DNA of 64,000 bases, taken from the NCBI RefSeq assembly GCF_000518245.1, contig NZ_KI912405.1, positions 24,110 to 88,109 on the forward strand, read 5' to 3'. The notes below the pieces were generated by a model, which saw only the letters and a list, made by a program, of their open reading frames with translations, was not told the origin of the DNA and searched no databases. This DNA comes from Brachyspira alvinipulli ATCC 51933. GTDB lineage: Bacteria; Spirochaetota; Brachyspiria; Brachyspirales; Brachyspiraceae. Made by a program: the position numbers and the translations under genes. Of the stretch, positions 22,135-23,577 are shown piece after piece. How positions within the stretch are numbered: position 1 is the first letter of the stretch; every line of letters starts with the position of its first letter.

Positions 22135-23250
22135 TTATTGTTTAACAGGCACTAAATATGTAAAGTCAAATTGCAAAGTTTGGTCATATCTAATACCTAT
22201 TTCATTTTTTTCATTAAGGAATAAACCATTAACAAAACCAAGCCCCAAAACGATACCGTTATCAAATACAAAATCTTTCTTTATATTAAGTCCGAAATAG
22301 AAAGGAACTCTATAAAAAGGATCACCTTCAACACTTATAAATTTATGTCTTTTATCTATATACCACCCTGAAACAAATATTATAGGCTCTATTTCAAACC
22401 AAGTTTTTACTGGTATTGTTCCTCTTAAAAATATGCCATGACCGAATTGTGTTACATTATTATCCCTATCTGTTATATTATAAGATGCCATATAAAGTAT
22501 AGATAAATAATAACTATTAATACCTATGGCTCCAACATAATTTTCTGTAATAGCAGGAGTGCCTTCAACAAAAGGATATTCATGTCCTCCGTTATGCCAA
22601 TAGTGAATTCCTATATAAGGAGTCGCTATTTCATGTGCAAAATCCATAGAATAAGTAACACCTACATCAAATCTTTCCCTATGTTTGGCATTGTTTTGTA
22701 TCTGCCAATTCATATATACTTCTCCATTACCTCCTTTAAACCATTGAAAAGAAGCACCATATTCATAAAATCCATGTGTGAAAGGTTCATTATACTGATA
22801 TTCTTCAGGACCTTTTGCTATTAAAGTATTATCCGGTGTAGAGCGTACAACTGGTGTCATATCCATTAAAGGATCTCTTATAGGTGCAGGAAGATTATGT
22901 CCTCCTGTCATTGTACCTATTCTCAAAGACACATATTCATTAGATAATTGAGTTGTTACTATTGGAAATACTCTTATACCTTGAGGAAATTCAAATGTAA
23001 ATGGGAAAAATACTGAAGCACCAACTCTTAAACTAATAAAATCATTAAATTTGATATCAAAAGCTCCTTCTGTAAAATTTTCAAAATATGTCAATGTTGT
23101 TCTCGTATCCTGCCAAAGTGTATTTTCACCATTATATGCATAGGAACTTGTAAATAGTCTAAAATCTACAGTAGTATTTGCATGTAAAAAATACCCCCCC
23201 CCGTATACAGTTATTAACATACATAATAAAAAACGAAATATATGTTTCAT
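22135..23250 (-). CDS. Predicted outer-membrane beta-barrel protein with phase-variable signal peptide
   Basis: This 371-residue protein starts with a signal peptide (hydrophobic residues 4-24, probable cleavage after HA at ~25). The rest has alternating hydrophobic and polar strands rich in Tyr, Trp, Gly and Phe (for example ISLRVGASVFFPFTFEF and TPYIGIHYWHNGGHEY). It ends in a strand with aromatic residues (LQFDFTYLVPVKQ), as expected for a barrel of about 12-16 strands. Codons 17-19 of the signal peptide are a run of nine G on the coding strand. Gain or loss of a G would shift the frame, so expression may be switched by slippage. The cargo is unknown. Confidence 0.75.
   Translation of the reverse strand: MKHIFRFLLCMLITVYGGGYFLHANTTVDFRLFTSSYAYNGENTLWQDTRTTLTYFENFTEGAFDIKFNDFISLRVGASVFFPFTFEFPQGIRVFPIVTTQLSNEYVSLRIGTMTGGHNLPAPIRDPLMDMTPVVRSTPDNTLIAKGPEEYQYNEPFTHGFYEYGASFQWFKGGNGEVYMNWQIQNNAKHRERFDVGVTYSMDFAHEIATPYIGIHYWHNGGHEYPFVEGTPAITENYVGAIGINSYYLSILYMASYNITDRDNNVTQFGHGIFLRGTIPVKTWFEIEPIIFVSGWYIDKRHKFISVEGDPFYRVPFYFGLNIKKDFVFDNGIVLGLGFVNGLFLNEKNEIGIRYDQTLQFDFTYLVPVKQ
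23194..23202 (-). repeat. G9 homopolymer in a signal-peptide coding region
   Basis: Nine C on the plus strand are nine G on the coding strand of the outer-membrane protein gene, coding Gly17-Gly19. It is the longest G/C run I noticed in this very AT-rich window. The gene is in frame (ON) in this sequence. Confidence 0.95.
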
Positions 23251-23577
23251 ATGGCAACCTTTATTTTAATAAAATATTATATTTAAATGAAAAAAACAAT
23301 ATGAATGTTCATTATAACACAGTTAACATAAAATTACAATTATGATAACTATATAATAAATATATATTAATTATTCAAAAAATTAATATATATTTATTAT
23401 ATAAAAATATTTTTTATTAAACTAATAATAATTAAATTAAGAAAACTGTATATATTTTTATATTTAACTATTTAGTATTTTAAAATTACTCTTTACAATA
23501 AGGCATTTTATATTATAATTGATTAATCATTTTGATTCTTTATTCAAAATTAAAAAACTATTATTAGGAGTTATACA
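23251..23577. other. Divergent intergenic region before purH
   Basis: This 327-bp AT-rich gap holds the start regions of the outer-membrane protein gene (minus) and purH (plus). A TAGGAG ribosome-binding site lies just before the purH ATG. No reading frame, structured RNA or clear purine-riboswitch pattern was seen. Confidence 0.5.

Follow-up and report, generated by a model that had tools for sequence, protein, structure and literature searches.

A run of nine G within the signal-peptide coding sequence of a porin-like gene of Brachyspira alvinipulli, a probable translational contingency locus

The 64-kb stretch of DNA analysed here, referred to in its entirety as the window, contained a single run of eight or more G, a tract of nine within the signal-peptide codons of a gene for a predicted outer-membrane protein. 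The question raised by this locus is whether the tract serves as a slippage switch that turns the gene on and off, as suggested in a preliminary description of the DNA, or is a run of glycine codons that arose by chance and has no regulatory role.

The G9 was located at 23194-23202 on the minus strand, in an open reading frame extending from 23250 to 22135 that starts with ATG and encodes 371 residues. It corresponds to nucleotides 49-57 of the reading frame, codons 17-19 (GGG GGG GGG), and the minus-strand sequence at this point reads ATGAAACATATATTTCGTTTTTTATTATGTATGTTAATAACTGTATAC-GGGGGGGGG-TATTTTTTACATGCAAAT. The preliminary description had placed the tract in these codons, regarded the gene as ON and predicted that a change of one base would truncate the protein, all of which was confirmed by reading the frame: the 371-residue frame is open at G9, and the computed products are 27 residues for G8, 30 for G10, 29 for G7 and 28 for G11. 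The frame was kept in the computed G6 and G12 variants. The features of the locus, with the evidence for each, are:

22135..23250, minus strand: porin-like outer-membrane protein gene, ON (open reading frame, orthologues, barrel model and Foldseek)
23194..23202, minus strand: G9 tract, proposed slippage switch, codons 17-19 (run counts and models)
23179..23250, minus strand: signal peptide MKHIFRFLLCMLITVYGGGYFLHA, about 24 residues (sequence and orthologue alignment; cleavage site inferred)
22138..23178, minus strand: mature porin-like barrel (orthologues, model, dN/dS of 0.055 relative to the sister genome)
23258..23262, minus strand: probable ribosome-binding site AAAGG (inferred from the sequence)
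23311..23339, minus strand: probable promoter TTGTAA-17-TATAAT with TG ahead of the second hexamer (10 of 12 matches)

Unlike most of the intergenic DNA, the promoter-like stretch was conserved ahead of the gene in four further Brachyspira sequences. Within the signal peptide, the tract follows the hydrophobic core and precedes the presumed cleavage site.

The product is predicted, with moderate model confidence, to be an exported, 16-strand porin-like outer-membrane barrel. In the AlphaFold2 model (mean pLDDT 76.7, pTM 0.75), 16 long strands form a beta barrel, and the top Foldseek matches were the porins OmpM1 and OmpF (E ~1e-8, probability 1.0, TM ~0.5). The 16-strand topology is that of the general trimeric porins OmpF and Veillonella OmpM1, but the identity is ~10% and the TM ~0.5, and the pore function is a prediction. 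By sequence the protein could not be placed in any known porin family: searches of Pfam and NCBIfam gave no family above the cut-off, and a sequence search of the PDB gave no credible match. The first search covered 24 other Brachyspira genomes and found orthologues in most of them; orthologues were also present in Mucispirillum (Deferribacterota) at 62-72% identity and in Brevinematales at ~40%. Comparison with the gene of a sister metagenome-assembled genome (G002, uncultured Brachyspira E20__bin322) gave a dS of 0.168 and a dN/dS of 0.09 over the first 292 codons and 0.055 over the mature part, low ratios that indicate that the porin-like protein has been kept in use. The earlier assignment of the gene to a surface protein with a signal peptide is thus supported by the sequence, by the predicted porin-like fold and by purifying selection relative to the sister genome.

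The preliminary description had also considered nine consecutive G improbable by chance. Shuffled sequences gave 0.08 expected G8 matches per window, and order 1-4 Markov models trained on the window predicted 0.0006-0.017 runs of at least nine per window and 0.03-0.9 per genome. The claim therefore holds within the window, where the G9 is rare, yet genome-wide its occurrence is not wildly improbable, and with this expectation the presence of a G9 somewhere in the genome is, on its own, no proof of selection. A pattern search of the 3.42-Mb genome to which the window belongs found no other G9; the counts of runs of exact length were 39 for G6, three for G7, three for G8 and one for G9. Four runs of at least eight were observed, compared with 0.3-4.6 expected, depending on the model. 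Scanning the genome for further long runs was a check suggested at the outset; one of the four breaks a reading frame, and two congeners have 16-18 runs. The frame-breaking run, a G8 at G000:C10:11269-11276 (L009:1501-1508), throws a gene for a methyl-accepting chemotaxis protein out of frame; in the sister genome this gene reads GAGGGAGGAAAT at the site and has an intact frame. It is possible that this receptor gene is a second phase-variable gene, in the OFF state, or that the G8 is an assembly error. Another G8, considered as a further possible switch, lies in frame in an RND transporter gene (L012), and this pump gene appears normal.

Among the Brachyspira orthologues, the tract was found only in the window gene and in that of the sister genome. 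The latter reads TAC AGG GGG GGG TAT, that is, A+G8, which likewise totals nine bases and stays in frame, and the approximately 20 other orthologues had ordinary, shorter signal peptides lacking a G run. This sequence comparison marks the tract as derived in the pair. No difference in tract length was seen between the two, with one genome representing each, despite a dS of ~0.17, and this constancy of length is, as judged from the pair of sequences, the main point against frequent switching.

Poly-G was also found at the same site in four Mucispirillum orthologues, where the run begins at nucleotide 47 from the ATG, compared with nucleotide 49 in the window gene. Three of these (L051, L057 and L063) had G9, in frame and ON (e.g. 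MRFLLVLIATLSILSW-GG-ACFAVDVDF). The fourth, L056, had a G10 that, like the other Mucispirillum alleles, was read from a single metagenome-assembled genome and may be an assembly indel; it puts the gene out of frame and OFF, with a predicted product of MRFLLVLIATLSILSWGGGMFCS followed by a stop, and the frame downstream is open. The DNA of L056 and L063 was 93.5% identical over the gene and the upstream region. A short remnant, GGGGCGC, was present in L055, and L052, L053, L054 and L058 had no tract. In the tree of the mature proteins, the tract had to be gained or lost two or more times on branches with good support, and the sequences flanking the tract in Brachyspira and Mucispirillum were unrelated, which together make separate gains likely; judged from the sequences, the tracts of the two genera probably arose independently. 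The idea that the signal peptide was acquired horizontally from Mucispirillum was considered and rejected because the flanking sequences differ. In eight of the nine Mucispirillum genomes (G042-G050), 16-44 positions matched G9, far above the number in the window genome, as expected if the genus is rich in contingency loci.

Long G runs were abundant elsewhere in Brachyspira. Runs of 8-17 numbered 18 in genome G021 (L116-L133) and 16 in B. catarrhinii Z12 (G006; L134-L145). Thirty of these 34 were in coding DNA; in 29 of the 30 the coding strand carried the G, and 20 of the 30 were out of frame. The genes that carry them, mostly for surface-glycan enzymes, outer-membrane proteins and transporters, encode FkbM and class-I methyltransferases, GT2 and GT10 glycosyltransferases and radical-SAM enzymes, as well as transporters, outer-membrane proteins, a lipoprotein and a Vsp-family protein, and apparently constitute a phase-variable gene set that has no prior description. 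One methyltransferase site, compared among orthologues from several other species, had a tract of G8, G9, G10, G12 or G13, or none, giving both ON and OFF states. The idea that tract richness stems from a loss of mismatch repair was rejected, since mutS and mutL were over the cut-off in every Brachyspira genome searched, the tract-rich ones included, except for the fragmented assembly G014. An inserted cassette shared by the tracts was likewise rejected; the flanks had only a weak preference, C before and TA after, and no common element.

Several individual tracts were recorded in the same survey. Orthologous lipoproteins of two species had G10 (L131:1464) and G14 (L140:1506) just past the lipobox, both out of frame, and a G9 (L127:1477-1485) breaks the Vsp-family gene (PF05540, Serpulina variable surface protein) after residue 103. 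The sister genome has a methyltransferase gene with an out-of-frame G14 (L105:1332-1345), the orthologue of which in G021 (L132) has an out-of-frame G11; no close orthologue was found in the window genome. Two intergenic runs in G021, G13 (L126:1489-1501) and C17 (L124:1569-1585), are possible promoter-type switches, the former lying ~125 bases upstream of a gene pair for small secreted proteins. A short module like IDNIAWWIPIRKWRDNFRNKF, either N- or C-terminal, was common to otherwise unrelated glycan-type enzymes (L069, L118, L122, L125, L136, L139, L141 and L142), and is perhaps a docking or membrane tag.

Taken together, the sequence evidence suggests that the window gene is probably a working translational poly-G contingency locus, in the ON state here. 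Slipped-strand changes of the G9 would switch the porin-like protein stochastically. The porin would be made from a G9, G6 or G12 allele, in which the frame is open, and extra glycines past the hydrophobic core would probably be tolerated, so that changes of three bases would leave the gene ON. In a G8 or G10 allele, translation would stop after 27-30 residues and no porin would be made until a reverse slip restored the frame. The scheme would entail an elevated slippage rate in the window species and selection for both states by phage, antibody or permeability. Several observations favor a contingency locus, 1) the tract, as the sole G9 of the genome, is above background length, 2) a change of one base would abolish the product, and 3) the product, from the predicted signal peptide and barrel, is surface-related. 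The claim of the preliminary description receives indirect support from the poly-G repertoire of the genus and, most strongly, from the same-site tracts of Mucispirillum (G9, G9, G9 and G10), which include an OFF allele with an otherwise intact frame, although this is one allele in another genus and the two Brachyspira alleles, G9 and A+G8, are equal in length. It counts against the proposal that the contingency-rich genomes are those of relatives and not of the window species, the genome of which has only four runs of at least eight; in addition, its MutS and MutL may slow slippage.

The constancy of length could also mean that the tract is neutral, a run of G codons that arose by chance where the signal-peptide spacer tolerates it, and that is effectively stable and has no regulatory role. 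The sister genome, in which the run has the same length and is interrupted, the presence of mismatch-repair genes and the most permissive background model, which expects up to ~0.9 such runs per genome, all fit this explanation. However, GGG represents just 4.4% of the glycine codons, so the triple GGG is not due to codon preference, and neutrality is also opposed by the independent poly-G at the same spot in the same gene of another phylum, with both G9 and G10 alleles, and by the coding poly-G tracts of the genus, which are polymorphic and often OFF. On balance, neutrality was considered unlikely, although it carries appreciable weight.

Far less probable is an assembly or sequencing artefact, in which the real tract would have a length other than nine. 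Homopolymers are the commonest sites of indel errors, and long ones were noted to complicate sequencing in a B. hyodysenteriae genome paper (PMC8845278), but the frame is intact at G9 and the independently assembled genome of a related species also has nine bases at this site, in frame; moreover, an error would alter the reported state and not the existence of the tract. It is equally hard to credit that the tract tunes export instead of switching it, with steps of three bases changing the signal-peptide spacer and the efficiency of secretion. The retention of the frame at G6 and G12 and the position of the tract, past the hydrophobic core and ahead of the presumed cleavage site, would allow such tuning, but slippage occurs mainly in single-base steps, which truncate the protein, and the variant observed in Mucispirillum is a +1 change that is OFF.

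The Opa repeats of Neisseria sit in leader-peptide codons. The window gene, with its coding G9, differs both from Opa, which has pentamer repeats, and from porA, in which the poly-G is in the promoter, and no sequence relation of the window protein to either was found. Opa and PorA are nevertheless surface proteins, one of them a porin, that are controlled via the length of a repeat tract (as cited in PMC7864442). In Campylobacter jejuni, G or C runs of at least seven inside reading frames, mostly in genes for surface-modifying enzymes, switch expression ON and OFF by frameshift at ~1e-3 per division (PMC4965091). The window species resembles C. jejuni in being an AT-rich gut bacterium with G runs in coding DNA, but in C. 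jejuni switching has been measured and the loci number 12-29 per genome, whereas the window genome has its four runs of at least eight. The Treponema pallidum tpr genes and tp0126 likewise involve spirochete outer-membrane proteins and tracts of ~8-10 G, the length of which varies within isolates, the tprL poly-G ranging from 7 to 11 and being mostly 9 (PMC7864442). The treponemal tracts studied in most detail are located in promoters and affect transcription, whereas the window tract is in signal-peptide codons and would act on translation. Brachyspira also has variable surface proteins of the Vsp family (PF05540), and a Vsp gene of another genome in the genus has the frame-breaking G9 described above, but the window protein, for which Pfam and NCBIfam gave no family above the cut-off, is not a Vsp.

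Poly-G contingency loci are of a known kind, to which the Brachyspira porin-like gene would add a new case. The open-licence literature searched contained no description of poly-G phase variation for either Brachyspira or Mucispirillum, and for phase variation in Brachyspira yielded only a general remark on Vsp proteins and the remark on homopolymer sequencing. The broader proposal, that the same porin became a poly-G contingency locus independently in the signal-peptide codons of Spirochaetota and Deferribacterota under shared selection, for example by phage or host antibody, and that both genera have undescribed phase-variable sets, is more tentative and falls somewhat short of probable. If slippage-driven phase variation does occur in these genera, variation among single colonies in a conserved porin, Vsp proteins and surface-glycan enzymes would complicate serology, the choice of antigens and phage susceptibility in Brachyspira and Mucispirillum, both of which are gut bacteria that are hard to culture. 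A switch that arose repeatedly in one porin would also make the selecting agent directly testable.

Elsewhere in the window, positions 446-1067 are occupied by a tandem array of ~11.5 copies of a 54-bp unit, equivalent to 18 codons if coding, with 91% matches.
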